Part shown: one piece after another, positions 5,924 to 23,601 of the stretch
Layout of the letters: the number at the start of each line of letters is the position of its first letter
Position numbering within the stretch: the stretch's first letter is position 1
Program-made: the position numbers and the translations under genes
The notes under the pieces: model-generated
Database searches by the model: none
What the model was told of the DNA's origin: nothing
What the model saw: only the letters and a program-made list of their open reading frames with translations
From: a virus
Virus record (IMG/VR): IMGVR_UViG_3300047480_000447
Location: 1-23,711 of that record
Length of the DNA stretch: 23,711 bases
Strand: one strand, 5' to 3'

Positions 5924-6976
5924 ATGACGACCGTATCTAGTCTTATAGACCTAGTTCGGTCAGAGTTGGGTGACACACCCAAATCGTTTGTTATGCAATT
6001 CATGGCAGACGGTACAACTAACCGTTTTACGCTCCATTACTCCCCTGTAGATGCTGATGATTTATTTGTAAGTTTTGACGGAGTAGATGTTTCTGACAAC
6101 TGTTCCGTAGAAGAAGCAACAGGCGTTTTAGTAACTGATAACGTTCCAGTTGAAGGAACAGAGATTACAGTTGCTGGAAATTATTTTAGATACTTTACCA
6201 CTGCTGAATTACAGCGATTTGTAGAAAACGCATTACTTCAACACTCAAACAATAGAGTTGATTCTTTAGGCCGTGTTCAAACGGTAACAAACCTTCCTGC
6301 AGTTGAGGTTTATCCAGTAGCCCTTCTTGCCACTACTTTGGCTTTATACACTCTTGCTACTGACTCTGCTTTTGACATTAACGTTTTTGCTCCAGACGGA
6401 GTAACTATCCCACGTTCTGAACGCTACCGTCAGTTGATGGACATGATTCAGGCACGTAAAGACCAATACCGTGAACTATGTGTTCTATTGGGTATTGGCA
6501 TGTACCGCATTGAGGTATTTAGTTTCCGCAGAATTTCTAAGACAACCAACCATTACGTGCCTCTTTATAGGCCACAGGAGGTGGATGATTACTCCTATCC
6601 AGAACGAATCGAACTTCCAAGACCAGACTACGGAGACAAGCCCTCAGAACACCCTTATGACTCTGTGGAACTTACCGCTTATCAAGACGTGGCGTTCTCC
6701 TATGCCATTCCGTATACGGGTGACCTCACAACTAAGGGAGTTGTTGCGAACATTAGATGGAAGGCTGGGGTAGACCAATCCCACATGCCGTTTACAGTTT
6801 CGGTCACATCTGCGTCTTCAACCAGTCATACTATTACTTTAAGTTTGACGCAGGAACAAACGAAAAGACTTGCACAAAGAATGTATTGGGATGTCCAGTT
6901 TGTATATGACTCAGATGGTCATAAAGAAACCTACAAGGCTGGCAAATTATTTACTGTTCGTGAGGTGACTACATAA
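5924..6976 (+). CDS. Putative head-tail connector or virion structural protein
   Basis: A 350-residue protein following the capsid group. GGAGGA at 5915-5920 sets the ATG. The N-terminus ([17 protein letters not shown]) resembles the short helix at the start of phage adaptor-type proteins. A beta-rich segment follows ([20 protein letters not shown]), then helices around residues 90-190 ([35 protein letters not shown]). The C-terminal third, from about residue 245, looks like an immunoglobulin-like beta domain ([20 protein letters not shown] to [17 protein letters not shown]). Position between capsid and fibre genes makes a connector or neck role likely, but the family is not recognised with certainty. 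It shares a TAATG overlap with the next gene. Confidence 0.6.
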
Positions 6977-8952
6977 TGCCAATTAATCCGAACAGCCCTA
7001 AATATCCAGAGATTGACCCATCACTACTTCCTGCCGTTCCAGGACAACGTGGTGCAACAGGCCCTCGTGGTGCTACAGGTCCTACTGGACCAACAGGTGC
7101 TGCTGGCTCTGCTTCTGCTACTGGTGCAACAGGTCCGCAAGGTGCAACAGGTCCAACAGGTCCTGCATCTAACATAACTGGACCAACAGGTCCTCGTGGT
7201 TTTTCAGGTCCAACAGGTGAACAAGGTCCTACAGGTCCTCGTGGTCCTGTTGGTGAAACTGGTGCAGTTGGTCCTACAGGTGCACAAGGCGGTATTGGTC
7301 CAACAGGTTATACAGGTCCAACAGGTCCTCAAGGTCCACAAGGTACTGCAGGTTTTGTTGGTTCTGATGGTGCTACAGGACCTACTGGTCCTACTGGTTA
7401 CACAGGTCCAACAGGTCCTGCATCAAACGTAACTGGTCCAACTGGTTATACAGGTCCACAAGGAGACATTGGTCCTACAGGTCCAACAGGTTATACAGGT
7501 CCAACAGGTCCAACTGGTTACACAGGACCTCAAGGTACTCAAGGCGTTCAAGGTGAAGTTGGCCCAACAGGTTATACAGGTCCAACAGGTCCTCAAGGTG
7601 CAGACTCTACAGTTCAAGGTCCAACAGGCCCTACTGGTGCTACTGGTCCTACTGGTGCTGCTGGTGCTGCCACAGTAATTAAGGGCGAGTATTTAGATTT
7701 TGCAACACTTGTTGCAGCACGTCCAACAGGACAAATAGGAGATTCTTATCTTCTTGCTAATGGTGACCTTTGCGTTTGGAACCCATCGTTAAATGGCGGT
7801 GCAGGTGGTTGGCAAAACGTCGGTAACATTCAAGGCCCAACAGGACCCCAAGGTATTCAAGGTGCAACAGGACCTACTGGTGCAGACTCAAACGTTACAG
7901 GTCCTACTGGTGCAGTTGGTCCAACAGGCCCTACTGGTGCTACTGGTCCTGCATCTGATGTAACGGGTCCTACAGGTCCTATCGGACCTACAGGTCCAAC
8001 AGGTGCAACAGGTGCAGATTCAACAGTAACTGGTCCTACAGGCTATACAGGACCTACGGGCCCTACTGGTGCTGCTGGTACATCTATCAACGTTAAAGGC
8101 GTTGTAGCAACCACAGGAAATCTTCCACCTTCAGGAAACGTTGCTGGTGACGCATACATTGTTACTGCAGACAACCACATTTATATTTGGTCAGGCTCTG
8201 CTTGGGTTGATGCTGGACAGTTCGTAGGCCCAACTGGTGCTACAGGTGCAACTGGTCCTGAAGTTACAGGCCCTACTGGTCCTATGGGTCCACGTAATGG
8301 AACTACATTTGTTGTTACAAACAACCCAGGAAACACAGGGTATTTAGTTCAAGACATTTCTGGTACAAACCCAACACTTACTCTTGTACGTGGCGAAACA
8401 TATTACTTTGATGTAAGTGGTCTAAACATTCTTGACCCTCTTGCATTACGTCTTGATACAAACAACACTTCTGCAGTTCCAGGAACAACGAATAATGACC
8501 CAGTAAACGGTAAATATTCTGCATCAGTTCCAAACGTTATTACGTATGTTGTTCCTCTTAACGCTCCTTCTAACATTGTTTATCAGAGTTCAAATGATGC
8601 ACAACAAATTGGTCTTCTTAACATCTACGACAAGCGTGGTGACCAAGGTCCTACTGGTCCAACAGGAGCCACAGGTCCTACTGGTCCACAATCTCAGGTA
8701 ACTGGTCCAACTGGTCCTACGGGTCCAACTGGATACACAGGTCCTGTTGGTAGATTTACCGCTAGTGCTACTGCACCTGATGTGTCTACATCAAATGCAG
8801 GAGACGGTTGGTTTAACACTCAAAATGCAAAAACTTATGTATTCTTTCAAGGTGCTTGGGTAGAAGTTGCTTCAGGTAACGTCGGACCTACTGGTCCACA
8901 AGGAACTGTTGGAACGTTAGCAATATCTACTTCATGGTGGCTAGGGGCGTAA
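6976..8952 (+). CDS. Collagen-like tail fibre with degenerate cupredoxin-like domain
   Basis: A 658-residue modular fibre, probably trimeric. After a short N-terminus, Gly-X-Y repeats (mostly [12 protein letters not shown]) fill about residues 23-232, 284-367, 418-438 and 556-590. Between them sit three copies of a roughly 45-residue mini-module with a GD-[YW]...W or F...W motif (about 235-283, 367-416, 592-635). A beta domain at about 439-555 resembles the cupredoxin-like tip of the 18889-19698 protein ([18 protein letters not shown]) but lacks the copper ligands. GAGGTGA at 6962-6968 is the ribosome binding site, and the start overlaps the previous stop by one base. Host-surface binding is the likely role; the partner is unknown. 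Confidence 0.85.
7042..7672 (+). repeat. Collagen-like Gly-X-Y coding repeat, longest block
   Basis: About 210 codons of near-continuous Gly-X-Y, dominated by GPT with Thr in the Y position, and interrupted by AS[NT][IV]T-type breaks. Synonymous codons vary (ggt/gga/ggc, cca/cct, aca/act), so DNA identity between units is high but not perfect. Shorter blocks follow in the same gene at about 7828-8080, 8228-8290 and 8641-8745. Confidence 0.9.
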
Positions 8953-9032: not shown

Positions 9033-11440
9033 TGCCAGGTTTTCTAGGCGGCTCTTCTGGTAGCAGCGGAGTAAGTGGAGAAATCCGTTTCCCTGCTGAG
9101 TTAATTGACCCAGTAACTAAAATCCGTGTCAGTGAACCTCAAAACCTCATTGATACAGACTTTGAATATGGTCTTCAGCCTACTAAGTGGGAAACTGTTG
9201 AATTAATTAACAACACCCCATCATTCTTTTCTGCATCAGGCGATACCACAATCCCTAACCTTGTTGACGTAATTACAACAGCAGGTTCTCGTGAAGTTAA
9301 GGTAACAACTGCTCTTGCTCATGGTTTGGCTGTCGGTATTCCAATCAACGTTTCTGGTACAAAATCAATCACTGCCGATGGTTCTTACATCATTAACTCA
9401 GTTCCAGATACCACAACTTTCACTTATCTTTGCAAGCAAAATCAGTTAACTACTGCTTCTATTGTTGACCTTTACACATCCATTATTACTGGACAGTTCT
9501 TTCAAGGTTCACAAATTAAAATTTCTGACTCTGAAGGTATTATCACAGATGCTCAGGGTCAATCTACTCTTACAATCAAAACTGACTCACCTCACGGTTT
9601 TGGTGTTCAAACCCCGTTTTACTTCCTTAACTTAAACTCAACTATCTCACAAGAGTTTGACTCTTCAAATACAGGTTCTAAAACGTTCGACTCTTCGAAC
9701 ACTGCTACTGCTCAGTCATTTGATGGTTCTAACACACTTACTTCATACCCAGTAGACGTTACTAACAATGCAAATACCAACGGTCCGACTTATGCAAGCA
9801 CCGTTGCTGCTGTTAACACTACTGACGACACAATCACTGTAACCCACACTGCAAACGAAAACTTTATCGGAAAACAAATCGGTACTCCTTTGTACTATGC
9901 GGTAACTGCAAGTTCTGGATACTTTGCAACAAATCCTCGTGGAGTCGTTTATATTGCTACTCCTTCTGGCGGTGTTACCAATACATTTGGTCAAACAAAC
10001 TCAACTTTTGCTGTTAGTGCAACTCCTGGTGGGACTAAAATAGATTTAACAGTTGCTCTTACAGGGACTTTCCAATTAGCAACCTCTGCTCGTTTGTTTG
10101 CTGGAAACAACGAAGATAGCACTAACCAAACTTCTGTAGACGTTATTGCTCAAACTGCCGTTCAATTTGATGGTGCAAATTCTTTAGGCTCTACTTCAAA
10201 TGTTAACTCTTACAGTGGTACAAGCATTTTGATGACAAATGCGGCTGGTTCTGCAACCGACACAGGCCTGTATGTAAATGCTATGGTTCAGTACACTACG
10301 ACAGGCTCTGCTGCATCTGGTTTAACCAATAACGAAACTTACTTTATTACCAGTTTTATTGTTCTTGCTCCTTCTGCTCCTGGACTTGTACAGGTACAAG
10401 TGTCTGCAACACCAGGAGGTTCGGCTATTTCTATAAGCGGTGGTAGCGGAACTCAAAGTTTTAAAAAGATTGGCATTTCTACAACCAGAGACATGTGGCA
10501 TGTTCCTGGACATGATTTCTTACTTGGAGATATGGTTCTTTATCAGTATCCAAGCGGTGGTGCAATTGGTCGTTCTAACACTGTTAGCGATTATATGTAT
10601 GTTTCTAAAGTTTACGATTCCTACAATGTTCAATTAAAGAACGATAAAGGTACAACACCTGACGGTCTAACAGCAGCAACTGCTGGCGTATCAGCAGCAC
10701 AACTAAAGGCTGATAACGGATATAACACAGACGGTGTTTACTGGATTACCATCAACAATACTCCTCAACAGGTGTATTGCATTATGGACAGCCGTATTGA
10801 TGGTGGCGGTTGGATGATGATGATGAAGGCTACTCAAGGAACGACTTTCTCTTATTCGTCTTCTTACTGGACATCAAACAACACACTCAATACTGGAGAT
10901 GTAAATCGAAATAACGGTGATGCAAAGTTTGACGTATTTAACTACTTCCAAGGTAAAGACATGCTTGCCTTGTGGCCTGATATTGGTCAAGGCGGTTCTA
11001 TAAGTGCGTCGGGGTATCCATGGATTTGGTTACAAAACAACTACTATGACGGTACTCGTATTACTCCACTATCTTTCTTCCAAATTGACAATTACCCTGT
11101 AGGTTTGGGTGGTTCTGGTAAATTTATTCGTGATGCCAAAACCTTTAGTGGTTGGGCTCCTGGTGTTTTTTCTAGCCAGGCAGACATTCGTTTCTACGGA
11201 TTTAACTACAAGGGTTACTCTAATAACACTGGTAACGGCGTTCGTTGGGGATTTGGTTGGAACGAAAACAGCGAAGGATTGTTCCCATCAAGCGGTGGTT
11301 GCTGCCATGGCTCTAACGACGTATCTGGTGGTATTGGTATGGCTTATGGCGTTAACTGGTCTGCTGGTGACAGAATCTCTTGCTGTCAAGATTCAACAGG
11401 TATCAACCGTGCTGCTCGTGTCGAATTGTATGTGAGGTAA
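9032..11440 (+). CDS. Tail protein with C-terminal fibrinogen-like domain
   Basis: An 802-residue adhesin. The N-terminus (MPGFLGGSSGSSG, then FPAELIDPVTKIRVSEPQNL and FEYGLQPTKWETVELINNTP) closely resembles, from memory, a virion structural protein of T4-like cyanophages and marine myophages, and probably attaches it to the tail. The middle is beta-rich, with three FDSSNT/FDGSNT units near residues 209-235. From about residue 560 a fibrinogen C-terminal-like domain begins: GVYWITINN, VYC (C583), GGGW (591-594), an aromatic core, and near the end GGCCHGSNDV and SCCQDSTGINRAARVELYVR. Such domains bind acetylated sugars in animal lectins, so host glycan binding is a reasonable inference. AAAGG at 9018-9022 and TGATG coupling support the start. 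Confidence 0.85.
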   Translation: MPGFLGGSSGSSGVSGEIRFPAELIDPVTKIRVSEPQNLIDTDFEYGLQPTKWETVELINNTPSFFSASGDTTIPNLVDVITTAGSREVKVTTALAHGLAVGIPINVSGTKSITADGSYIINSVPDTTTFTYLCKQNQLTTASIVDLYTSIITGQFFQGSQIKISDSEGIITDAQGQSTLTIKTDSPHGFGVQTPFYFLNLNSTISQEFDSSNTGSKTFDSSNTATAQSFDGSNTLTSYPVDVTNNANTNGPTYASTVAAVNTTDDTITVTHTANENFIGKQIGTPLYYAVTASSGYFATNPRGVVYIATPSGGVTNTFGQTNSTFAVSATPGGTKIDLTVALTGTFQLATSARLFAGNNEDSTNQTSVDVIAQTAVQFDGANSLGSTSNVNSYSGTSILMTNAAGSATDTGLYVNAMVQYTTTGSAASGLTNNETYFITSFIVLAPSAPGLVQVQVSATPGGSAISISGGSGTQSFKKIGISTTRDMWHVPGHDFLLGDMVLYQYPSGGAIGRSNTVSDYMYVSKVYDSYNVQLKNDKGTTPDGLTAATAGVSAAQLKADNGYNTDGVYWITINNTPQQVYCIMDSRIDGGGWMMMMKATQGTTFSYSSSYWTSNNTLNTGDVNRNNGDAKFDVFNYFQGKDMLALWPDIGQGGSISASGYPWIWLQNNYYDGTRITPLSFFQIDNYPVGLGGSGKFIRDAKTFSGWAPGVFSSQADIRFYGFNYKGYSNNTGNGVRWGFGWNENSEGLFPSSGGCCHGSNDVSGGIGMAYGVNWSAGDRISCCQDSTGINRAARVELYVR
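9656..9736 (+). repeat. Three short FDSSNT-type repeats
   Basis: Six-codon units at 9656-9673, 9686-9703 and 9719-9736 encode FDSSNT, FDSSNT and FDGSNT, 30 and 33 bases apart. They lie in the linker-like middle of the fibrinogen-domain tail protein and probably arose by local duplication. Confidence 0.75.
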
Positions 11441-11442
11441 TA

Positions 11443-14400
11443 ATGGCTCTTATTGACGTAACCACTGTTGGTACTGCTGGTCAGCATACCCTTCAACGTA
11501 CAAACGTAAACTTAGCAGACAACTTCTTTTACTATTCAGGACTTGCTAACACTCCCTCTCGTGCTTTTCCTGCATGGGCTGCTGATGGAAACCCTTGGAT
11601 TTATCGTACTGCTGTAGGTTCTGTTGGCGGTTTAGTTTCAGGAAACCTTTACTACACCAAAAAACTTGACGCTAATTCCGTGTCTTTTTCTACTTCAGCA
11701 GGTGGAGCAAACGTTGATTTAACGACTGCAAACCCAGGGTCTGTAACTTTAAACTTCCCATTTGTTTACAACAACCAATTAAATATCAGTGCTTTATACA
11801 CCAACCAACAAGCCGTTAAGTATTTTACTAACTCAACTCCTATTGGTTCTTTAGTTTCAGGAAACACCTACTTTGTTAGAAATAACAATTCAGGTGTTGG
11901 AACTGGCCCTCTCTATTCATTCACTTCTCACACATTTACTACGGCTGGAAACACAGGACCTAGTGGCCCAACTCTTTCTGCATTAAGTGCTGCTTACAAC
12001 ACAGCGGGTGCAACATGGGCAACAAACACTGCTTACTTAAAACAAGGCTCATATCAAGGATACCAAGATTGGACTGTTCCAATTACTGGTGTTTATGAGT
12101 TTACAGTTGCTGGTGCTCCAGGTCGTCAAGGTAACGCTGCTGGTGGTGGCGGTGCAATTGTTAAAGGCCGTGTAACTTTAAATAAAGGCGAAATTGTAAC
12201 TATCGCTGTAGGTCAACGAGGCAACAATCCAGGAAACAACACAGCATGGCCCGCTTCTTCTGGCGGTACATTCGTTGTTCGTAAGAACGGAAATGTTGCT
12301 TTATTCGTAGCAGGTGCTGGTTCTTCCTCTTCTAACACCACTCCTGGTCGTAACGCTGTTTTAACAACCTCTGGTGATAACGCAAATGGTACTGCTGGTA
12401 CAGGCGGTAACGGTGCTCCAGGAAACGTTGTTGGTGGTGCTGGTGGTGGTTTCTTATCCGCTGGTGGCAATTCTTCACGTGGTGGCGGTGGTGGAGGTTT
12501 TAATAACGGTCTTGCTGGTGGTGGCGGTGCTGGAGGTTCTTCAGCAAGCGGTGGTTTTGGCGGTGGCGGTGGTTCCGACGGTGAACAATACGGCGGTCCT
12601 GGTGGTGCTGGTGGTTATTCTGGTGGTGCTGCTGGACCTGCTCAAGGAACTGCACCTGGTGGTGGTGGCGGTTCATACATCATTCCTACAGCAACCAACG
12701 TTGCTACTTCAACTGGACAATACAACGGCTCTTCAACTTTTGGTGGTAAACCAATCACAAACCTTTCGCTGTATAACACAGGCAACTCAGAAGGTTCTGT
12801 TGGTGTAACTCTAGTTTCTGGTGCAAACTCAGGAACAACTCTTCACCCAACAGCAGCGGATGCTCAAGCAAACACAAACGCTATTTCTTTAACTCCTGCT
12901 GGTAGTGAATACCATGCTCTTGTACCCATCAATCTAGATTTGGGTGCAAACACCTTTAACTTCCCAGATGCTCATGGGTTAAACAGCGGAGATTCTTTAA
13001 CCTACTCATTTACAGGAACAGGTGTCGGCGGTTTAGCAGCAAACTCTGTTTACTATGTAAACAAGGTTGATAACTATACTTACAAACTAAGTTCTACACC
13101 TTCTCCTACATTTACAGATGTAGACATTACTACTCCTGCAACAACTCTTGATTCCGCATTTAACAAGGTTGTTGTAAACGTTGCAACTAACGTTATCAAC
13201 ATTAATAGCCATGGTTTCTTAGCAAATCAGCCTGTTAAGTACAGCACTGGTGGTGGAACTGCTATTGCTCCACTTCAAAACAACGCTACATATTATGTAA
13301 GAAACGTTGTGGATAATAACAACATCCAACTCAGTGGACAGTTAAATGGACCAGTTATTGATATTACTTCTGCTGGAACAGGAACTAACCACTCATTCAT
13401 TTATGTTGTTGTAAACATTGATGAAGACAGCCTCTACATTCCAGGTCACGACCTTGTAACTGGTTCTAGGGTTGTGTACTCTGCAGGTGCAGGTACTCCT
13501 ATCGGAGGCTTAACTTCTGGTGCAACATACTTCATCTACAAAGTAGATGCAAACATCGTGAAGTTGGCAACCAACAAAGAAGGCACAAATATCATCAACC
13601 TGACTTCTTTGGGTACAGGAAACCACACATTAACTACAAACTCTGTAGATTTTGTTGCGGACCAAATTTCTATTCCTTCTCACGGATTTAGCCAAGGAGA
13701 ACTCGTACAGTACGACTCTGTTGGTCAAACAGCAATTGGTGGATTAACTTCTGGTAACCCTTACTACATTATTTTGGTAGATGGTGACAACATTAAGTTA
13801 GCCAATACTTTGTCTGAGGCTAATGCTGGAACTGCTGTAAATATCACAACAGCAGGTGTTGGTCGTCACCGTATTTTGTCTCTATCTAAGTCTCCTGATG
13901 GTACTTACACAATTGACTCAGTACCTACTGACTACACATTTACAGTTCCTGCAAATGGTTTCGTACCATTTATTGTAAAGACTTTTACCCCACGTTCTGT
14001 TGTAGATATTCAGCAAAATAACATCAAGATTTTGTCTCACGGTTTTATTACTGGAACTAAGGTTAATTACGACGCAGAAGGTGGAACTGCAATTGGTGGT
14101 CTTACTGATGACCAAGATTACTACGTAATTAACGTTAGCAAGGACTACATACAGTTAGCATCAACTGCTGAAAATGCTGCTTCTGGTGTTCCAATTGCAT
14201 TAACATCCTTTGGTGGTGGAACTGACCATACCCTTACATCTGCTCAAATCAATGGTTACGTAACTGGTTCAGGAACAGTGTCTACTCAAGTAGGCTCAAC
14301 TCTTGTATCAGGTGTAAACACTGCTTTTGCTAAGATTCTTAAAGTTGGTGATAGATTTAGACTATTCCCACCTAATACAACAACTACTTCAACGTTTTCT

Positions 14401-17019
14401 AGTGCAAACGTAACAGTAAATCCAACAAACACCATTACTTTAACAGGCCACTCTTTCTCCACAGGAGATTCAGTTGTATACACAGCAGGTTCTGGCTCTG
14501 TTGCCCCTACTGGTTTAACTTCTACTTACTACTACTTCATTCGCAGAATTGACGCAAATACTGTCAAACTATTTAACACTTCTGCAGATGCAGTATCTAA
14601 CGTAAACCCTGTAGTCATTACGACTCAAGGTTCTGGAACTACTCACACATTTGTTAAAACAATTCCAGCATCTCCAATTATTCGTAAGATTACTGCTATT
14701 GGTTCTGATACTCAGGTAACCGTAGACCGTCCTTATGCAACTGCATACAGCGGTGTTTCTTACTCATATCAAACCTTCGTTTATGTACGTCCTCAAGGGT
14801 ATTCATTACACCGTCCATTTGATGGTGGTGTAGAAATGTCTACAGGTGTCGGTACTTCATGGGCTTCTATTATTCGTCAAACCCGTAAATACTTCCGCTA
14901 CCAGTCAGGTAAAGGTCTACAAACCTCTTTTGGTATTAACTTCAAACCAACCATTGACCTTGAAAAAGTATTTAAGGTATCTAATACAACCTTCCAATGC
15001 ACAACTCGTCGTCCTCATGGTTTGATTAACGGTCTCTACATTAAAATTTCTGAGGCTCGAACAAACACAGGTGCATTAAGTACCGTTTATAACGGAATAT
15101 TCCAAGTAACTGTACTTGACAGCCTTAACTTCACATGTATTGCTGCCTCTACAGTTCCTAACTCACCAAATAACGTCGCCTATGGATTCCCTCAATTTAA
15201 CGTAAATGCGTGGGAAAACGGAGCACTACGTGCAGGTATGTTTGACTTCCAGAACGGTATGTTCTTTGAATTTGACGGTCAAAAGATTTACGCTGTTCGT
15301 CGTTCCTCTACTCAACAGATTGGCGGAACTGCAGCAGCCCTACAAGGTTCAGAGTTTGTGTTTGGAACAGGAACTTCATTTACAACACAACTTGCTGTAA
15401 ATGATTACATCGTTATGCGTGGTCAGTCTTACAAAGTTTCAAGCATCCTTAGTGATACTCGTATAACAATTAAACCTGAATATAAAGGCTCTTCAGGTGT
15501 TGAAAAAGAATTCAACCCAGGAGACGGAACTACAGGCGTGGTCAGAGTTACAGATGACCAGTTTGTAATTCAAAATCATGGATTTACAAACAACCTACCC
15601 ATTGTGTACGACTCAATTGATGGAACTCCTATTGGGGGTCTTATCAACGGACGTACGTACTACGTAGACCTAATTGATAACAACAACTTTAAGTTGAAAG
15701 CAACCCCAGACGCTTTAACTGATGTATCTATTTCTTCAGCAGGTACAGGAACACCTCATTCCTTTACTCCTGCTAAATCAGGCATCATCATTACAAAGAC
15801 AGTGGATACTCGTACTCCACAAGAAGAATGGTCAATTGACCCTTGCGATGGAACAGGTCCTACAGGTTACAACCTAAATCTTGGAACCATTCAGATGGCT
15901 TACATTGACTACTCTTGGTACGGTGCTGGAAAGATTCGTTATGGATTTAAGACAACAGACGGTGAAGTCCGTTATGTACATGAATATATCCACAACAACT
16001 TCCAACTAGAGTCATACTTCCGTTCAGGTAACTTGCCTGGTCGTTACGAAGTAACTACTTATGCTAATCCAACCTACATTCCGTTTTTATTCCACTGGGG
16101 TACTTCGGTAATGATGGATGGTAAGTTTGATGATGACAAGGCTTACTTGTTCTCTCAATCTGGTCAAACTCTAACTATTGCAGGTACTACAGCAAAAACT
16201 TTTGGTTCAAGAGCAATTACTATTGCAAACAACCAAATTAACATCCCAACTCACGGCTTCTCTTCTGGAGACTCTGTACAGTTTGTTGGTTTAACTGCTC
16301 AAGGTTTAACTGGTAATAACAACCAAAACCCAGCAACTGCAAACGTACCTACTCACCCATTTGCTAACTTGCAAAATAGTCGTGTGTACTACATTCGTGC
16401 AGTAGATGCTAACAACGTTACTTTGCATCCAACTCAAGCAGATGCAACAGCAACAGGTGGAACAAACGTAATTGATATTACATCTCAAGGTAACACTCAA
16501 TACACGTTCTTCTTCTACCCACTTGGCTCATTAAACAACACCTCTGGTGCTAACTATCAGCCATTACTATCGCTACGCCTATCACCATCAGTATCTAGCG
16601 GTTTGACTGGTAAGTTGGGTGACCGTGACGTTCTAAACCGTATGCAGTTGCGTATTAAAGAACTTTCAGTTCAAACAACTCAATTGGTTGACGTTAAGGT
16701 TCTTATTAATCCACGTTTGAACAACTTGAACTTCACATCAGTTCCAAGCCCAGCGTTGAGTCAGATTATTCAACACACAGGTAATGACACGGTTTCTGGT
16801 GGTATTCAGGTTTACAATTTCCGTGCTGCTGGTCAGAATGGTACAGAACAATCTACAACAGTAGATATTTCAGACCTGTTTGAGTTGTCTAACTCAATTC
16901 TTGGTGGAGACTCAGTATTCCCTGACGGTCCAGACATCCTGACGGTTGCTGTGGCTCGTTTGACTGGTAATACTACGCTTACCTCAGCAAAGTTAACGTG
17001 GACTGAAGCACAGGCATAG
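11443..17019 (+). CDS. Giant tail protein with glycine-rich domain and tandem beta repeats
   Basis: A 1858-residue virion protein, the largest gene here. I place the start at the ATG with GAGGT at 11434-11438, just after the previous stop; the same frame opens upstream at a TTG (11380) with no ribosome binding site. Residues about 214-416 form a Gly_rich-type domain (GVYEFTVAGAPGRQG, VTIAVGQRG, then very Gly-rich loops). From about residue 505 come repeated units with the pattern HGFxxGxxVxY, GTxIGGLTxGxxYYV, VDxxxIKL, ITSxGTGxHTL. Later segments FRYQSGKGLQTSFG, NGMFFEFDGQKIYAVRRSST, and DGTGPTGYNLN with DYSWYGAGKIRYGF resemble, from memory, large structural proteins of T4-like cyanophages. 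It is probably a tail or baseplate-attached fibre. Confidence 0.85.
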   Translation: MALIDVTTVGTAGQHTLQRTNVNLADNFFYYSGLANTPSRAFPAWAADGNPWIYRTAVGSVGGLVSGNLYYTKKLDANSVSFSTSAGGANVDLTTANPGSVTLNFPFVYNNQLNISALYTNQQAVKYFTNSTPIGSLVSGNTYFVRNNNSGVGTGPLYSFTSHTFTTAGNTGPSGPTLSALSAAYNTAGATWATNTAYLKQGSYQGYQDWTVPITGVYEFTVAGAPGRQGNAAGGGGAIVKGRVTLNKGEIVTIAVGQRGNNPGNNTAWPASSGGTFVVRKNGNVALFVAGAGSSSSNTTPGRNAVLTTSGDNANGTAGTGGNGAPGNVVGGAGGGFLSAGGNSSRGGGGGGFNNGLAGGGGAGGSSASGGFGGGGGSDGEQYGGPGGAGGYSGGAAGPAQGTAPGGGGGSYIIPTATNVATSTGQYNGSSTFGGKPITNLSLYNTGNSEGSVGVTLVSGANSGTTLHPTAADAQANTNAISLTPAGSEYHALVPINLDLGANTFNFPDAHGLNSGDSLTYSFTGTGVGGLAANSVYYVNKVDNYTYKLSSTPSPTFTDVDITTPATTLDSAFNKVVVNVATNVININSHGFLANQPVKYSTGGGTAIAPLQNNATYYVRNVVDNNNIQLSGQLNGPVIDITSAGTGTNHSFIYVVVNIDEDSLYIPGHDLVTGSRVVYSAGAGTPIGGLTSGATYFIYKVDANIVKLATNKEGTNIINLTSLGTGNHTLTTNSVDFVADQISIPSHGFSQGELVQYDSVGQTAIGGLTSGNPYYIILVDGDNIKLANTLSEANAGTAVNITTAGVGRHRILSLSKSPDGTYTIDSVPTDYTFTVPANGFVPFIVKTFTPRSVVDIQQNNIKILSHGFITGTKVNYDAEGGTAIGGLTDDQDYYVINVSKDYIQLASTAENAASGVPIALTSFGGGTDHTLTSAQINGYVTGSGTVSTQVGSTLVSGVNTAFAKILKVGDRFRLFPPNTTTTSTFSSANVTVNPTNTITLTGHSFSTGDSVVYTAGSGSVAPTGLTSTYYYFIRRIDANTVKLFNTSADAVSNVNPVVITTQGSGTTHTFVKTIPASPIIRKITAIGSDTQVTVDRPYATAYSGVSYSYQTFVYVRPQGYSLHRPFDGGVEMSTGVGTSWASIIRQTRKYFRYQSGKGLQTSFGINFKPTIDLEKVFKVSNTTFQCTTRRPHGLINGLYIKISEARTNTGALSTVYNGIFQVTVLDSLNFTCIAASTVPNSPNNVAYGFPQFNVNAWENGALRAGMFDFQNGMFFEFDGQKIYAVRRSSTQQIGGTAAALQGSEFVFGTGTSFTTQLAVNDYIVMRGQSYKVSSILSDTRITIKPEYKGSSGVEKEFNPGDGTTGVVRVTDDQFVIQNHGFTNNLPIVYDSIDGTPIGGLINGRTYYVDLIDNNNFKLKATPDALTDVSISSAGTGTPHSFTPAKSGIIITKTVDTRTPQEEWSIDPCDGTGPTGYNLNLGTIQMAYIDYSWYGAGKIRYGFKTTDGEVRYVHEYIHNNFQLESYFRSGNLPGRYEVTTYANPTYIPFLFHWGTSVMMDGKFDDDKAYLFSQSGQTLTIAGTTAKTFGSRAITIANNQINIPTHGFSSGDSVQFVGLTAQGLTGNNNQNPATANVPTHPFANLQNSRVYYIRAVDANNVTLHPTQADATATGGTNVIDITSQGNTQYTFFFYPLGSLNNTSGANYQPLLSLRLSPSVSSGLTGKLGDRDVLNRMQLRIKELSVQTTQLVDVKVLINPRLNNLNFTSVPSPALSQIIQHTGNDTVSGGIQVYNFRAAGQNGTEQSTTVDISDLFELSNSILGGDSVFPDGPDILTVAVARLTGNTTLTSAKLTWTEAQA
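12955..14250 (+). repeat. Tandem array of about 78-residue beta repeats
   Basis: Within the giant tail protein, repeat-unit His-Gly or equivalent positions fall near 12973, 13210, 13446, 13680 and 14038. The first four are 234-237 bases apart, and the fifth follows after a longer insert. Divergent copies continue near 14449, 15016, 15576 and 16252. The shared pattern is an H[GD][FL] turn, a VxY strand, GG[LT] with YY[VI], then a VDxNxIKL strand and an ITSxGTG ending. Confidence 0.8.
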
Positions 17020-17557: not shown

Positions 17558-18889
17558 ATGCCAGTAACACGACTTGGGGTGTCCAATCCTCCTGCTAATG
17601 AAATAACCACTCTTGTTTCTGTAAATAAAGGGTATGTTGCTTCTGTAATTATTGCTAACAAAGGCACTAATACTGCAACAACTTCTGTTTATGTAGTTCC
17701 AACTGGTGGAACATACACAGACCCTACAACCATCACTATTGTTAAAGACCTTGCTGTACAAACAGGACAGTCTTTTGAAACTTTTCGTTTTGCTTTAAAT
17801 ACTGGTGATTCAATCCAAGTAATTGGAAGTACCGCAAACTTTTCATATTCAGTAAATGCTGCATACGAGGTAGACGGTCGTCAGTACGTTACATACTCTG
17901 GAACTGCTCCATCTTTACCTCAAATTGGCGACCTGTGGATTAAGACTGATAACTCTGTTTGGTTTTGGAATGGCTCAATTTGGGTTGATTCCATTTCCGT
18001 CGGACCAACAGGGCCAACAGGACCTGCTGGTGCTCCATCAACAGTTACTGGTCCCACAGGGCCACAAGGTGCTGCAGGAACTCCAGGCGGACCTACTGGA
18101 CCAACTGGTGCACAAGGACCTACTGGACCAACTGGTGCAACTGGACCATCAGTAACAGGACCTACTGGACCACAAGGACCAACTGGTCCGTCAGGAGGAC
18201 CAACAGGACCTGCTGGTGATGCAGGACCTACAGGACCTACTGGCCCGACTGGTCCAATTGCTCTTGCACAACAAACCAGTGCTCCTACAAATACAGACGT
18301 TTTGTGGATTGATACAGATGAAACTGCTTATAACTCAACGGTTCAACCTTGGTTAAGAGCATCATTACACAATTCTGCGACCACACTTGATGTAGTCCCT
18401 AGAGATTTAATTAATAACGCTATTAGCATTACTACAAATATTGCATACTTTTCGTTCTTTACTCCAACAGAAGACTTAACTGTTTCAAACATATCTTTTG
18501 CTTCAGGCTCAACAGTTGCTTCTGGTGTTACTTTGGTTAGATTTGGACTTTATACTTTTGATGGCACAACAGCAACGTTAGTTGCTAGAACAAATAACGA
18601 TGCTTCAAGATTCACTGTTGCAAATACTATTTACACAGGAGCATTAGATTCGACTGGTGGTTACCCAACTTCTTACACTCTAACTGCTGGAACTAGATAC
18701 GCCGTTGGTGTTGTTGTGGTAGCAACTAGTACGCCTACTCTTGCTGCTGTAGGTCATGGAAATGCTTCAACCGCAATTCTTGCAGCATCTCCACGTATGG
18801 CTGGTTATGCTGGTTCTCAATCAGATTTGCCAACAACACGAAATGCGTTTAGTGGAATTACCCACAGATACTGGAGTAGATTGTCATAA
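17558..18889 (+). CDS. Collagen-like tail fibre with beta-rich tip
   Basis: A 443-residue modular fibre. Residues 1-105 ([37 protein letters not shown]) are paralogous to the upstream protein and probably form the shared attachment domain. Residues about 109-147 are the mini-module with [21 protein letters not shown] Gly-Pro-Thr collagen stem spans about 148-233. The C-terminal 210 residues form a beta-rich tip that begins [19 protein letters not shown] and ends [11 protein letters not shown] do not recognise its fold with certainty, though a jelly-roll is plausible. The ribosome binding site is weak (GGTGGGA just before the previous stop), so translation probably depends on coupling across the one-base gap. 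Receptor binding is inferred. Confidence 0.85.
18000..18260 (+). repeat. Collagen-like Gly-X-Y coding repeat
   Basis: About 85 codons of Gly-X-Y, mainly GPT and GAT, with PSTVTGPTG and PSVTGPTG interruptions and several GGPTG units. It is the stem of the fibre encoded at 17558-18889. Confidence 0.9.
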
Positions 18890-19698
18890 TGGCTACCTTA
18901 AAGTATTGGAATGGGTCTGCTTGGGTTGTTGCAACTCAAGGCGTTCAAGGACCACAAGGCGTTGCTGGTCCTACAGGACCAACTGGCCCTGCAGGTGGGC
19001 CAACAGGACCAACAGGCCCTGAAGGACCAACAGGTCCATCAGGTGGTCCTACTGGACCTACTGGTGCAGATGGACCAACTGGCCCAACAGGACCAATCGG
19101 TTCTGTAGGTGCAACAGGTGCACAAGGTCCAATAGGTGCAGATGGACCAACTGGCCCAATCGGACCAACAGGACCAACTGGTCCTATAGGACCAACAGGT
19201 GCTGCTTCTACTGTTACAGGACCAACTGGCCCTGCTTCAACTGTCCCAGGACCAACTGGACCAACTGGCCCTACAGGTGCACAAGGACCTGCAGGTGACA
19301 CTGGTTTAGCAGGTGCTGCTGTTATCACCCACATTGTTTCTGTTGCTTCAGTATTGGGAACAAACTATTACTTTATTGACGGTGTTCAAAATCCTGCATT
19401 AAAGTTTTTGCCAGGAATTACATACGTATTTGACGTATCAAATGACACTGTAGATGGTCATCCGTTCTACATATCAACAACTCAAGATAATCCTGCAACT
19501 GCTTTAGGTTCTTCAGCAGGAGTTACTTACACAGTTGGCACTAACACTTATAACACCTACACAGACTATGCAACAGCCTGGTCTGCAGGTGCAACTACTC
19601 GTAGAGTTCAAGTTGTAGTCAAATACGACTACCCAACAACGACTTACTACAACTGCAACATTCACTCTAACATGGGAAATTCAATAACAAAGTTATAA
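18889..19698 (+). CDS. Collagen-like fibre with cupredoxin-like metal-site tip
   Basis: A 269-residue fibre. It starts with a clipped mini-module ([15 protein letters not shown]), then a Gly-Pro-Thr stem (about residues 17-141), then a globular beta tip (about 142-269). The tip has the cupredoxin pattern seen in plastocyanin-like domains: a strand TYVFDVSN, then GHPFYIS with H191, and near the C-terminus [12 protein letters not shown] with C256, H259 and M262. These would be the His, Cys, His and Met ligands of a type 1 copper site, with C-X2-H-X2-M spacing. Metal binding is inferred from ligands only; the domain may simply be a stable structural tip. The start overlaps the previous stop (TAATG). 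Confidence 0.85.
18935..19310 (+). repeat. Collagen-like Gly-X-Y coding repeat
   Basis: About 125 codons of Gly-X-Y with GPT, GPI, GAD and GAQ triplets, and ASTVTGPTG and ASTVPGPTG interruptions. It forms the stem of the fibre encoded at 18889-19698. The long reverse-strand Pro/Val-rich frame here is only its complement. Confidence 0.9.
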
Positions 19699-19711: not shown

Positions 19712-20761
19712 ATGAAAATTGCGGTATACACCATCGCATTAAACGAAGAACAATTTGTAGAATCTTGGTATAACTCAGCAAAAGAATCAGACTATCTTCT
19801 TATTGCAGATACTGGCTCTACTGACGGTACTGTTGAAAAAGCCAAGTCTTTAGGCATTAACGTTATAACAGTTAATATAAAACCATGGCGTTTTGATGAT
19901 GCTCGTAACGCTTCTCTTGCTGCTATTCCCTTAGATATTGACTATTGCATTGCTTTGGATATGGATGAAGTTCTTGTTCCAGGGTGGAGGTCACACCTTG
20001 AATCTGTACCATCAACTGCTACAAGAATTCGTTATAAATACACATGGTCTTGGAATGAAGACGGTTCAGAAGGGTTAACTTACGGTGGAGATAAAATCCA
20101 CACACGTAAAGGCTATAGGTGGAAACATCCTGTACACGAAGTACTTACCACGTACACCATTGACGAAGTTCAATATTGGGCTGGACTCGAAATCCATCAT
20201 CACCCAGACAACACTAAATCTCGCAAACAATATTTCCCACTACTAGAACTGGCTACACAAGAAGACCCACACGATGACAGAAACGCTCATTACTTAGGTC
20301 GTGAGTATTACTACTGGGGCATGTGTGATAAAGCAAAAGCAGAACTACAGCGTCACCTTGCTCTCCCTAGAGCAACGTGGAACGTAGAACGTGCTGCATC
20401 CATGAGGTACATAGCAAAATGTTCTGAGGGCGATGAAAGACAAGAATGGCTGCATAAAGCCCACAACGAAGCACCTGACTCAAGAGAGCCTCTTGTTGAT
20501 TTAGCGGAGTACTACTACGAACAAAAAATGTGGACGGCTTGTCGTACCGCAGCACTAAAAGCATTAGACATTAAAGAAAAACCATTGCAGTATTTGAATG
20601 AGCCTAAATCGTGGGGCTCTTTCCCTTACGATATGGCAGCAATAGCCTCATACCACTTAGGTTTGAAGGAAGATGCCCTGAAGTTTGGCGTAGAAGCGTC
20701 TAACATAGACCCTAAAGACGAACGTCTAAAGAAGAACGTAGACTTCTATAAGGAGATGTAA
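19712..20761 (+). CDS. GT-A family glycosyltransferase (GT2-like) with helical-repeat C-terminus
   Basis: A 349-residue enzyme predicted to transfer sugar from a nucleotide-sugar donor. The N-terminal GT-A fold shows IALNEEQFVESW, ADTGSTDGT (32-40), FDDARNAS (61-68) and a DxD metal-binding motif DMD at 83-85, then the WKHPVHEVL segment usual in this GT2 subgroup. From about residue 190 the sequence is helical and TPR-like (HYLGREYYYWGMCDKAKAEL; DLAEYYYEQKMWTACRTAAL), possibly for protein-substrate binding. CGGAG at 19702-19706 is the ribosome binding site. Its place right after three collagen-like fibres suggests it may glycosylate virion proteins, particularly Thr in GPT triplets. Modifying host surface sugars is the alternative. 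Substrate and donor are unknown. Confidence 0.85.
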   Translation: MKIAVYTIALNEEQFVESWYNSAKESDYLLIADTGSTDGTVEKAKSLGINVITVNIKPWRFDDARNASLAAIPLDIDYCIALDMDEVLVPGWRSHLESVPSTATRIRYKYTWSWNEDGSEGLTYGGDKIHTRKGYRWKHPVHEVLTTYTIDEVQYWAGLEIHHHPDNTKSRKQYFPLLELATQEDPHDDRNAHYLGREYYYWGMCDKAKAELQRHLALPRATWNVERAASMRYIAKCSEGDERQEWLHKAHNEAPDSREPLVDLAEYYYEQKMWTACRTAALKALDIKEKPLQYLNEPKSWGSFPYDMAAIASYHLGLKEDALKFGVEASNIDPKDERLKKNVDFYKEM

Positions 20762-21373: not shown

Positions 21374-21514
21374 ATGAACCAAGAACAATATGAAGCAGCA
21401 AAGGCTGTTCTTGAGGCAGAACTTGCAGAAGCCATAGATGAGCGTGAAAAAGAGCGTTTAACAAAAGCACTCGATGACATCGCTAAATTGGTTGTAACCG
21501 ATGCCTCTGAATAA
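21374..21514 (+). CDS. Small helical protein
   Basis: A 46-residue protein (MNQEQYEAAKAVLEAELAEA onward) predicted to be a single helical hairpin rich in Glu, Ala and Lys. I choose the ATG two bases after the previous stop, with a short AGG at 21367-21369; an ATG in the same frame at 21332 would overlap the neck gene by 41 bases and has no better site. Its end overlaps the next gene by 14 bases. It may be a chaperone or assembly partner of the neighbouring fibre, but that is a guess from position. Confidence 0.6.
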   Translation: MNQEQYEAAKAVLEAELAEAIDEREKERLTKALDDIAKLVVTDASE

Positions 21515-22109
21515 ACCACGTCGTGGTGATTTAGATTGGGACGTTACTCTCAACGCTTCACTTGATTATTTAGACACCAAACCAATGCCAACTGGTCCTA
21601 CGGGACCTGCTGGTGCAACAGGAGCAACTGGACCTGCTGGTGCAACAGGAGCAACTGGACCTGCTGGTGCAGCAGGAGCAACTGGACCAACAGGACCCGC
21701 TATGTCTTTTCCAAACCGTGTGTTGTATACACCAATTTGGTCTGGAACTGGGCTAACACAATCTTCTAACCTGGCTACAGGAAGTTACTTTGACTACGGT
21801 CAAATGGTGGTTGTTCAAATCACTGTTCCAATGACAAACGTTACTAACTTTGGTACTGGTGGATACTCAGTTACTCTTCCAAAACCATCTGCAGTTCATT
21901 CAGATGGTTGGGGTGGAACTATTCACGACACAAGCACAGGTAATTTTTACAGTTTAAAAGCACATTTAGAGGCGGAGTCAAACGTAGCCACTCTTTGGTA
22001 CATAAGTGGGGCAGGTCAAGACGAAACTTTTGACCACAACAGCCCGTTTAATCTTGATACTACTGACTTATTCCACATCAACTTTGTTTATAATGCGATT
22101 GTTTCCTAA
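21501..22109 (+). CDS. Short collagen-like fibre with beta tip
   Basis: A 202-residue fibre in three parts. Residues 1-29 are an attachment segment (MPLNKPRRGDLDWDVTLNAS) of a kind common at the start of phage collagen fibres. Residues about 30-67 are Gly-X-Y repeats, here richer in GAT and GPA than the larger fibres. Residues 69-202 are a beta-rich tip (VLYTPIWSGTGLTQ, DYGQMVVVQITVPMTNVTNF, GTGGYSVTLPKPSAV) resembling a module widespread in structural proteins of actinobacteriophages, from memory. The start lies inside the previous gene and lacks a clear ribosome binding site, so reinitiation is likely. It sits apart from the main fibre cluster, beyond the glycosyltransferase and neck gene. 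Confidence 0.8.
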   Translation: MPLNKPRRGDLDWDVTLNASLDYLDTKPMPTGPTGPAGATGATGPAGATGATGPAGAAGATGPTGPAMSFPNRVLYTPIWSGTGLTQSSNLATGSYFDYGQMVVVQITVPMTNVTNFGTGGYSVTLPKPSAVHSDGWGGTIHDTSTGNFYSLKAHLEAESNVATLWYISGAGQDETFDHNSPFNLDTTDLFHINFVYNAIVS

Positions 22110-22369
22110 TGGCAGAAAAAAAGAAACCTGTTAAATCAGAAAAGCCAGTAACTCTTGCAATTGGAGTTCCTGGTAAAAAGGCTCACGTTACTCACAAAGT
22201 ATCAAAAAATAAAAAAGGTGATGTTGTAGTTGAGCACACTAATGTTAAGTTAGGAAAGTACGACAAAATCAACTTAACAAAAAAGGCTGGTGCTAAAAGT
22301 ATTAGTCAAGGTGTAAAAGCAGTAAAGAACTACCACAAACAAACTCCGCATAGAAAGCAGGGTCGCTAA
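22109..22369 (+). CDS. Small Lys-rich protein, first of the microprotein chain
   Basis: An 86-residue strongly basic protein (MAEKKKPVKSEKPVTLAIGV; HTNVKLGKYDKINLTKKAGA), ending HRKQGR. It has a possible small beta core (residues 15-55: VTLAIG, KAHVTHKV, DVVVEHT) and a Lys-rich remainder. The start overlaps the fibre stop by one base (TAATG), with no independent ribosome binding site. Charge suggests nucleic-acid or capsid-interior binding. I do not recognise a family. Confidence 0.7.
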   Translation: MAEKKKPVKSEKPVTLAIGVPGKKAHVTHKVSKNKKGDVVVEHTNVKLGKYDKINLTKKAGAKSISQGVKAVKNYHKQTPHRKQGR

Positions 22370-22515
22370 TGGCAAAAACACTATCTAAGAATCCTTGCTG
22401 GGACGGGTACGTTCAAGTAGGTATGAAAAACAAAAATGGTAAGAAAGTTCCGAACTGTGTACCTGAAGGTTCTGGAAAAAAGAAAGTTGCCAAACCAAAG
22501 AAAGGTAAGAAATAA
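22369..22515 (+). CDS. 48-residue Lys-rich protein with NPCWDGYxxxG motif
   Basis: A short gene linked by TAATG to both neighbours. The protein begins MAKTLSKNPCWDGYVQVGMK and has NGKKVPNCVPEG, then a Lys-rich tail ending KPKKGKK. The CWDGY-(x)n-G-(x)n-KKVPNCVP pattern, with two cysteines (C10, C30), is one I recall from many small phage and phage-associated ORFs of unknown function. The two cysteines could pair or bind metal. The final Lys-Gly-Lys-Lys codons (AAAGGTAAGAAA) double as the next gene's ribosome binding site. Confidence 0.75.
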   Translation: MAKTLSKNPCWDGYVQVGMKNKNGKKVPNCVPEGSGKKKVAKPKKGKK

Positions 22516-22649
22516 TGTGTGCTACATGTGGCTGTATGCGTCCTAAGGACAAGCATGGCGAAAAGACTCTTGCTGCAGCAAACCGTAAGTTTGCAAAGAA
22601 AGACAAAGACAAGAAAGCCAAGTCCTCTAAAGCAAAGGGCAAAAAGTAA
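22515..22649 (+). CDS. 44-residue protein with HypB-like N-terminal CxxCxC
   Basis: The protein begins MCATCGCMRPKDKHGEKT and continues as a Lys/Ala-rich helix ending KAKGKK. Cysteines 2, 5 and 7 match the position and spacing of the N-terminal MCTTCGC of E. coli HypB, where Cys2, Cys5, Cys7 and the amino group form a high-affinity nickel site. A His at 14 is also close. No GTPase domain is present, so this is not HypB, only a shared motif. Nickel, zinc or another thiophilic metal is possible. The start is given by TAATG and AAAGG from the previous gene's tail. Short actinobacterial proteins with a similar start exist as far as I recall. Confidence 0.75.
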   Translation: MCATCGCMRPKDKHGEKTLAAANRKFAKKDKDKKAKSSKAKGKK

Positions 22650-22705
22650 TGGCATGTAAAGACAAGAACTGCAAGTGCACTTGCAAGGTATGCAAAGGAA
22701 AGTAA
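22649..22705 (+). CDS. 18-residue cysteine-rich microprotein
   Basis: The complete product is MACKDKNCKCTCKVCKGK: five Cys (3, 8, 10, 12, 15) and six Lys in 18 residues. The C-x-C-x-C-x2-C core is metallothionein-like in density. Start and stop are tightly placed: TAATG with the previous gene, whose tail codons AAAGGGCAAAAAG give a ribosome binding site, and a stop directly touching the next ATG in the same frame. Readthrough or reinitiation could link it to the next protein. It could be a metal-binding peptide or only a coupling element; its length makes either uncertain. Confidence 0.55.
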   Translation: MACKDKNCKCTCKVCKGK

Positions 22706-22993
22706 ATGTCTAAGACTCCTTCATTTATGAAGGGCAAATACACCAAGTCCAAAGACGAAAAAATGGATGCCCGTTTAACCAAAAAGGCTGGTCTTGATAA
22801 GGAACAGAAAGAAGAGTTCGAAAAGAAGGACAAAGCCCATGGTCTTAAAAAGAAGCCCAAGACCATCTCTGAAGACCGTAAGGTAGATACCAAAATCATC
22901 AAAGGTATTAAGGCTAAAGAGAAGCGTCATGAAGCCCGTGAGGGTAAGAAGGGCGAGAAAGCCGAAGAGAAGCGAGAGCGTAAAAAGAAGTAA
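22706..22993 (+). CDS. Highly charged Lys/Glu-rich protein
   Basis: A 95-residue protein (begins MSKTPSFMKGKYTKSKDEKM) composed largely of Lys, Glu, Asp and Arg, ending EKRERKKK. It is predicted to be helical or disordered with no hydrophobic core, signal peptide or Cys. AAAGGAAAG at 22693-22701, encoded by the preceding peptide's tail, is its ribosome binding site. It is the last gene before a strong terminator. A histone-like or capsid-internal DNA-binding role is conceivable from charge, but nothing specific is recognised. Confidence 0.75.
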   Translation: MSKTPSFMKGKYTKSKDEKMDARLTKKAGLDKEQKEEFEKKDKAHGLKKKPKTISEDRKVDTKIIKGIKAKEKRHEAREGKKGEKAEEKRERKKK

Positions 22994-23001
22994 AAGTTAA
23001 G

Positions 23002-23025
23002 GCCACCTTCGGGTGGCTTTTTCTT
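23002..23025 (+). terminator. Intrinsic terminator with UUCG tetraloop
   Basis: GCCACC at 23002-23007, loop TTCG, GGTGGC at 23012-23017, then TTTTTCTTT. C(UUCG)G is the ultra-stable tetraloop, and the T-run makes this a textbook Rho-independent terminator. It closes the microprotein operon, so genes from 23106 need a new promoter or readthrough; I could not find a convincing promoter in 23026-23105. Confidence 0.92.
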
Positions 23026-23105: not shown

Positions 23106-23297
23106 ATGTCTACACCATGGTATGAACAGATTACTGATATTCATAATGCCCATGAACGTGACGAATTCGTCAAAGGAATGTTTGGTCTAAGACCTCATAG
23201 TCAGCACACATTTATAGCGGGATTACTTGCTGGTTATCTAGGCACTAAGGCCCTCACCAAGACGATGAAGAAAAAGTCACGTTATGAAAACCGTTAA
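23106..23297 (+). CDS. Small protein with possible membrane segment
   Basis: A 63-residue protein. AAGGGG at 23091-23096 precedes the ATG by nine bases. The N-terminal half is polar (MSTPWYEQITDIHNAHERDE). Residues about 38-52 (TFIAGLLAGYLGTKAL) form a short Gly-spaced hydrophobic stretch, followed by a basic MKKKSRYENR tail, a layout suited to a small membrane-inserted or amphipathic helix. Its end overlaps the next gene by 14 bases. It is not similar to a holin that I can name; the function is unknown. Confidence 0.65.
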   Translation: MSTPWYEQITDIHNAHERDEFVKGMFGLRPHSQHTFIAGLLAGYLGTKALTKTMKKKSRYENR

Positions 23298-23601
23298 CTT
23301 CCAAGAGGTACTAAAGCAAGCAGCAAAAGAAACCTCATTGGTTATGACTGCCCAACTAAGGGACGAGTGTATAGCCAGTGGCTGGTCAGAAAAAGTTGCC
23401 AATAGAATTCGCGTTGTTTACAAAGGCAACAAGTTTGTCGTTGATATTCCTGATTCCGTTAAGTCTGAAGCAGACAATTTTGAGTACGGAACCCCTACCT
23501 CTCAACCTACGGCTGCCATCCGTCGTTTTGGCAACCGTCTAGAAGATTCTGAAAAGTTTTTGTTGCGGAGAGCAAAGCAACTAACAGGAGGTGCTCTATG
23601 A
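23284..23601 (+). CDS. Putative tail-completion or neck protein (HK97 gp10-like)
   Basis: A 105-residue protein. The N-terminal half is helical (FQEVLKQAAKETSLVMTAQL), then a beta segment (ANRIRVVYKGNKFVVDIPDS) and the sequence ADNFEYGTPTSQPTAAIRRF. An EYG[TS] followed by Pro and a final helix is characteristic of HK97 gp10-type neck proteins that join head and tail. The match is by pattern only. It overlaps the gene before it by 14 bases and the gene after it by four (ATGA), an operon-like arrangement. Its appearance here suggests the tail-assembly genes continue beyond the window. Confidence 0.5.
   Translation: MKTVNFQEVLKQAAKETSLVMTAQLRDECIASGWSEKVANRIRVVYKGNKFVVDIPDSVKSEADNFEYGTPTSQPTAAIRRFGNRLEDSEKFLLRRAKQLTGGAL

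Follow-up and report, generated by a model that had tools for sequence, protein, structure and literature searches.

The window, a 23,711-nucleotide stretch of viral DNA, carries a chain of five microgenes (p1 to p5) that is real and goes far beyond what chance would give: purifying selection acts on each frame, and homologues of all of them occur elsewhere in the same order. The cassette to which these genes belong is no rigid five-gene block; it varies in content, keeps its order and draws on about ten families of microproteins.

Genomic context and layout of the chain

The window is a fragment of an aquatic tailed phage with a bacterial host. Its genes run from the terminase end through the portal and MCP, both upstream of the cassette, to long genes for fibres and other structural proteins; a glycosyltransferase gene and then the chain follow. 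The features are as follows.

18–713: terminase end
1541: portal
4216: MCP
19712–20761: glycosyltransferase (phrog_13126, 3e-114)
21501–22109, + strand: collagen-repeat (fibre-like) gene, first of the coupled chain; the repeat matches tail fibre PHROGs
22109–22369, + strand: p1, 86 aa, net +18, without Cys, near-invariant KxDKINLT core; dN/dS 0.14
22369–22515, + strand: p2, 48 aa, PCWDGYVQVGMKxKNGKKVPNCVP and a Lys tail, predicted beta-hairpin; dN/dS 0.125
22515–22649, + strand: p3, 44 aa, MCATCGC...PKDKHG and a Lys tail; C-x2-C-x-C-x6-H invariant, dN/dS 0.12
22649–22705, + strand: p4, 18 aa, MACKDKNCKCTCKVCKGK, five Cys; dN/dS 0.32 (interval 0.19–0.46)
22706–22993, + strand: p5, 95 aa, Lys/Glu-rich, net +17; dN/dS 0.12
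22999–23020, + strand: intrinsic terminator at the chain end, −18.3 kcal/mol, z −4.6
23106–23601, + strand: d2 (63 aa) and d3 (105 aa), a conserved flank downstream of the chain; d3 serves as an independent marker

The chain of p1 to p5 occupies 22109–22993 (86, 48, 44, 18 and 95 codons), and the spacer-free layout described in an earlier, sequence-only reading was reproduced exactly in coordinates and lengths. Its junctions are of the two kinds which that reading had named: TAATG overlaps at p1/p2, p2/p3 and p3/p4, and TAA/ATG contact at p4/p5, with p5 starting at the next base. The stop of the collagen-repeat gene (21501–22109) likewise overlaps p1 by TAATG, which extends the coupled chain to six genes. 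The strong terminator claimed at its end, a 9-pair hairpin followed by a T-rich tail at 22999–23020, is convincing (fold z = −4.6). Common gene callers have a length limit of roughly 90 nt; three of the genes had been considered too short for calling, but only the 18-codon frame lies below this limit. All five products are basic, as had been claimed, with net charges of +18, +12, +12, +5 and +17 for p1 to p5, although p5 combines 38% Lys+Arg with 20% Asp+Glu. The Cys clusters ascribed to the middle three proteins are found in p3 and p4 (five Cys in the 18 residues of p4, and eight in 34 residues in one p4 variant), whereas p2 has two separated cysteines.

In relatives, the genes that follow the cassette continue into those for the tail sheath and tail tube, showing that the phage group is contractile-tailed. 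Of 124 non-redundant loci that are long enough to judge, 116 have a sheath gene starting 991–1726 nt after the cassette. The cassette site lies between the fibre genes and the connector/sheath genes, and structural or packaging genes adjoin the cassette in nearly all loci with readable context. The MCP of the window is ~62% identical to the MCPs of Streptomyces phages of the BRock group, and this likeness tentatively suggests an actinobacterial host; p1 and p3, taken as another route to the host, had no match in 84,980 species genomes. Several collagen-repeat fibre genes occur within one structural module (6976–8952, 18889–19698 and 21501–22109), and a 1879-aa gene between the capsid and fibre genes (11380–17019) matches virion structural and baseplate-wedge PHROGs. 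The glycosyltransferase at 19712–20761 sits inside the fibre-gene run; 28 of 89 loci have it upstream of their cassette, and a role in fibre modification is possible.

Gene order is fixed and every frame is under purifying selection

Relatives of p1, p2, p3 and p5 in IMG/VR were confirmed by tblastn, and p4 was found inside those loci. Across 195 non-redundant loci, the order of the core five genes showed 0 inversions in 521 ordered pairs. The four genes p1, p2, p3 and p5 occur together in 30 loci, and all five in 10 non-redundant loci of the 195. When d3 was used as the query instead, cassette genes were found upstream in 13 of 14 loci, i.e. in every locus not truncated at d3 (14 contigs, 13 of them informative; two pairs are near-duplicates).

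Purifying selection is clear in every frame: nearest-neighbour dN/dS for p1 to p5 is 0.14, 0.125, 0.12, 0.32 and 0.12, with a bootstrap interval of 0.19–0.46 for p4, whose value is the least secure of the five because the sets were gathered by similarity and dN is thereby biased downward. Together, dN/dS and order rule out the reading of these frames as chance.

Gene content of the cassette is fluid

Some close relatives lack p3, p4 or most of p5. In the two closest (L002 and L003) p4 is absent and p3 joins p5 directly by TAATG, while in two others (L077, 4146–4345; L225, 4632–4823) p5 has been deleted except for its C-terminal tail and the flanking genes are kept. Up to five further micro-families (p6 to p10) are interleaved in relatives, in an order that is largely fixed. 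Of these, p6 corresponds to phrog_17747 (1.6e-35) and p7 to phrog_14910 (2.5e-38), neither of which is present in the window, and p10 is DUF6321 (2.4e-25; 89.4 bits against a cut-off of 28.5). The remaining two, p8 and p9, are Cys-rich, p9 being the sole family whose position is unsettled, relative to p3 and p4; both families are loosely bounded because the p9 matches were collected with a query sharing the MCAxCGC start. At curated cut-offs, DUF6321 (PF19846) did not match p1, p2, p3 or p5 of the window, and DUF5872 (PF19197) matched neither these nor p6 and p7 of the relatives. The 34-aa p4 variant and p8 gave no Pfam match, and p1, p3 and p5 gave no matches among annotated phage records.

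The question raised by the sequence-only reading, whether the chain is kept as a block, is therefore answered differently for order, which is kept, and for content, which varies through losses of p3, p4 or most of p5 and through added families. The free variation that would speak against such a unit holds only for the presence or absence of single members. A rigid five-gene block is ruled out by the varying gene content, and the loss of members in close relatives implies accessory roles.

Junctions and proposed translational coupling

Most adjacent cassette pairs overlap by −1, and the coupled junctions share the consensus AAGAAGAAGAAGTAATGGC. Of the distinct coupled tails, 176 of 182 end in TAA. 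Within the final codons of the upstream gene, 119 of 182 tails have a Shine-Dalgarno core, compared with 102.3 ± 4.0 after synonymous redraw; as the loci are related to each other, this excess is no more than suggestive. Since the cores are commoner than in the redraw, the Lys-Gly tails may partly double as ribosome-binding sites. The proposal of a single co-translated unit agrees with this coupled arrangement but does not extend to evolution, where varying gene content leaves no fixed unit. We infer late expression and coupled translation of the cassette.

Sequence motifs and predicted structures

The invariant residues of p2 are C10, W11, G13, Y14, G18, K20, N29 and C30. The protein falls into a motif family (PCW-x-GY-x3-G-x-K...VPNC; phrog_9737 and related; PHROG match 2.7e-9) defined by two cysteines on either side of a hairpin-like, aromatic stretch with VPNCV at its end. 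Its predicted model is a beta-hairpin (residues 14–22 and 25–32) flanked by the invariant C10 and C30, with a mean pLDDT of only 64; a search for a relative among solved structures returned one insignificant match (E 0.12). The p1 model, of fair confidence (mean pLDDT 79.6), is a beta-beta-beta-alpha-alpha mini-domain. Foldseek and VIA-align matches to it were weak (best Z 3.4), and no known fold or function was assigned from them, a missing match not being equivalent to a new fold. The C-x2-C-x-C-x6-H pattern of p3 is, as a sequence, compatible with a metal site.

Cassette families in other phages and homologous domains in virion proteins

Several of these families recur beside packaging genes in other lineages. 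In Methylophilales phage MEP402, p6 and p7 form an overlapping tandem directly before the terminase gene; the same overlapping tandem is found in HTVC034P, adjoined by DUF6321-like and p9-like genes, and in HMO-2011 the two lie about 2 kb apart, near the terminase. This micro-operon of HMO-2011-type phages, pelagiphages and MEP402 resembles the cassette in its short, Lys-rich, often overlapping genes and in its position next to or near late genes, sometimes the terminase (most clearly in MEP402). Both families also occur inside longer versions of the cassette, but the phage lineages differ. In a further lineage (L290, L296, L299 and L314) p3 lies shortly before a 639–640-aa gene, which in L290 (639 aa) is the terminase large subunit. 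A TAATG chain of short, Lys-rich genes (a 41-aa phrog_2423 gene, p3 and a 50-aa gene) is seen at L290:3876–4269, ~0.6 kb upstream of that terminase gene.

The p2 motif was found in 243 phage records, often within large proteins encoded near portal, protease, MCP or neck genes. Its carriers include HRTV-4 gp37 (between portal and MCP), RcZahn gp18 (between protease and MCP), DSL-LC01 and cyanophage T4-GC_119. In the T4-GC_119 proteins a single polypeptide holds both the p2 motif and DUF6321; their genes lie among those for gp15, gp16 and gp17 in T4-like cyanophages. The T4-GC190 cytidylyltransferase, a known virion protein, was rejected as a carrier, its S-SM1 copy being without the motif.

The proteome of purified virions of cyanophage S-CREM2, obtained by mass spectrometry, includes gp160, with 7 peptides, and gp137, with 4 peptides and 4.1% coverage (PMC10665884, Table 3). 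We find that gp160 contains NCWPGYEKKGTKKMFGKEYNNCVKK and scores 22.9 bits against the p2 profile, and that the C-terminal end of gp137 is DUF6321 (3.5e-10); the S-CREM2 proteins examined yielded no match to p1, p3 or p5. By analogy, these homologous domains support a virion association of the cassette proteins. The link, the only experimental one found, is indirect because gp160 and gp137 have other parts, and in these larger proteins other domains may explain presence in the virion. Like the cassette, the T4-GC_119 and S-CREM2 proteins have the p2 Cys motif and/or DUF6321, and most, though not gp160, are encoded in the neck/packaging gene region; unlike it, they are large multi-domain polypeptides with no separate microgenes.

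Discussion

We tentatively favour the reading that the cassette encodes accessory proteins which are co-translated late in infection, are packaged into the head or assemble with it, bind DNA and use their Cys motifs as staples. DNA binding, a metal or disulfide role and the copy number of p1 to p5 are what we infer here. Late transcription would give a single message for the cassette, and TAATG coupling, with ribosome-binding sites in the Lys/Gly codons of the previous gene, would allow the proteins to be made together late in infection. The microproteins would then join the head or the head-neck junction, or be packaged as heads fill, and would most likely stay in the particle. There, the Lys tails could neutralise or contact packaged DNA by charge, and the two-cysteine hairpin of p2 and the Cys clusters of p3 and p4 could act as disulfide or metal staples, so that the set would work like T4-type internal head proteins or protamines in modular form. 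The genes themselves may be drawn from a shared aquatic-phage microprotein repertoire, placed beside packaging or connector genes or fused into virion proteins. The T4 internal head proteins IPI–IPIII are small, Lys-rich and packaged with DNA, and their likeness to the cassette lies in this proposed role, with no sequence relation claimed. As is typical of phage internal head proteins, p1 to p5 are small, strongly basic (pI 9.2–10.4, net +5 to +18) and encoded in a structural region.

In favour of head-associated accessory proteins we count the gene order, the −1 overlaps, the TAA tails, the Shine-Dalgarno cores, dN/dS of 0.12–0.32, the sheath-linked site and the charges, together with the terminase-side micro-chains elsewhere, the fused cyanophage domains, the S-CREM2 virion listing and the absence of p1 and p3 from 84,980 species genomes. 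A late, structural context is supported, and the nucleic-acid or metal handling in the virion suggested by the sequence-only reading is plausible, given the two cassette-domain proteins in S-CREM2 virions. Counting against head-associated proteins are the other domains of gp160 and gp137, the acidic residues of p5 and the loss of members in close relatives. LuckySocke of the BRock group, with its ~62% identical MCP and a similar terminase-portal-scaffold-MCP order, has no Lys-rich microprotein cassette between its head and sheath genes; p1, p2, p3 and p5 are absent from the region searched, and the function is therefore dispensable in that lineage.

Somewhat unlikely, in our judgement, is that the products are transient cofactors of assembly or packaging (small scaffold, connector or terminase helpers), needed during head filling and tail joining but not retained in the particle. 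The fixed site by connector and sheath genes, the site by terminase in other lineages and the presence of the p2 motif in the protease–MCP interval of RcZahn (gp18) and the portal–MCP interval of HRTV-4 (gp37) would all fit such helpers, but homologous domains are found in proteins of purified S-CREM2 virions, and several members are dispensable in close relatives. A late host-takeover or stress set without structural role, in which p3, p4 and p8 would be metallothionein-like metal buffers and the basic members would act on host nucleic acid or ribosomes, we consider distinctly unlikely. It draws on the C-x2-C-x-C-x6-H of p3, the five cysteines in 18 residues of p4 and the accessory pattern of presence and absence; structural or packaging genes nevertheless adjoin in nearly all readable loci, and other members have few or no cysteines. 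Very unlikely is selfish or neutral accretion, whereby low-complexity Lys/Cys microgenes of little individual function would spread by recombination at AAGAAG-TAATGGC junctions. The junctions do share a repetitive consensus, and whole genes are gained and lost with TAATG junctions kept, but dN/dS well below 1 in every family already weakens this idea, as do the invariant core order and the retention of the cassette at one site over large divergence. That the short frames are not genes is, despite lengths of 18–48 codons and low-complexity Lys tails, refuted for p1, p2, p3 and p5 and close to untenable overall, with weak doubt left for p4, as start, stop, frame and Cys positions are conserved and substitution is synonymous-biased in all five.

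The favoured reading of head-associated accessory proteins can be extended, with a probability that we regard as low, to a modular 'protamine kit' common to aquatic tailed phages, in which ordered, exchangeable microgenes would supply Lys tails and Cys/His staples that jointly form a genome core condensed by protein inside the head. On this reading, T4-like cyanophages would have the same modules joined within single virion proteins.

In the open-access literature searched, we found no papers on DUF6321 or on phage metallothionein or protamine, one algal-virus paper on DUF5872 that was uninformative, and nothing that describes the ordered cassette or links the microgenes to the fused cyanophage proteins. 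Single families are already catalogued as unknown (PHROGs, Pfam DUFs). The analysis joins p1, p3, p4, p5, phrog_17747, phrog_14910, the p2 motif and DUF6321 as parts of a single ordered system that is open to test and tied to the head and neck genes of aquatic phages. That p4 has only 18 codons illustrates how genes of this kind are overlooked. The results suggest that small, basic Cys proteins may accompany packaged DNA as sets in tailed phages, which departs from the textbook picture.
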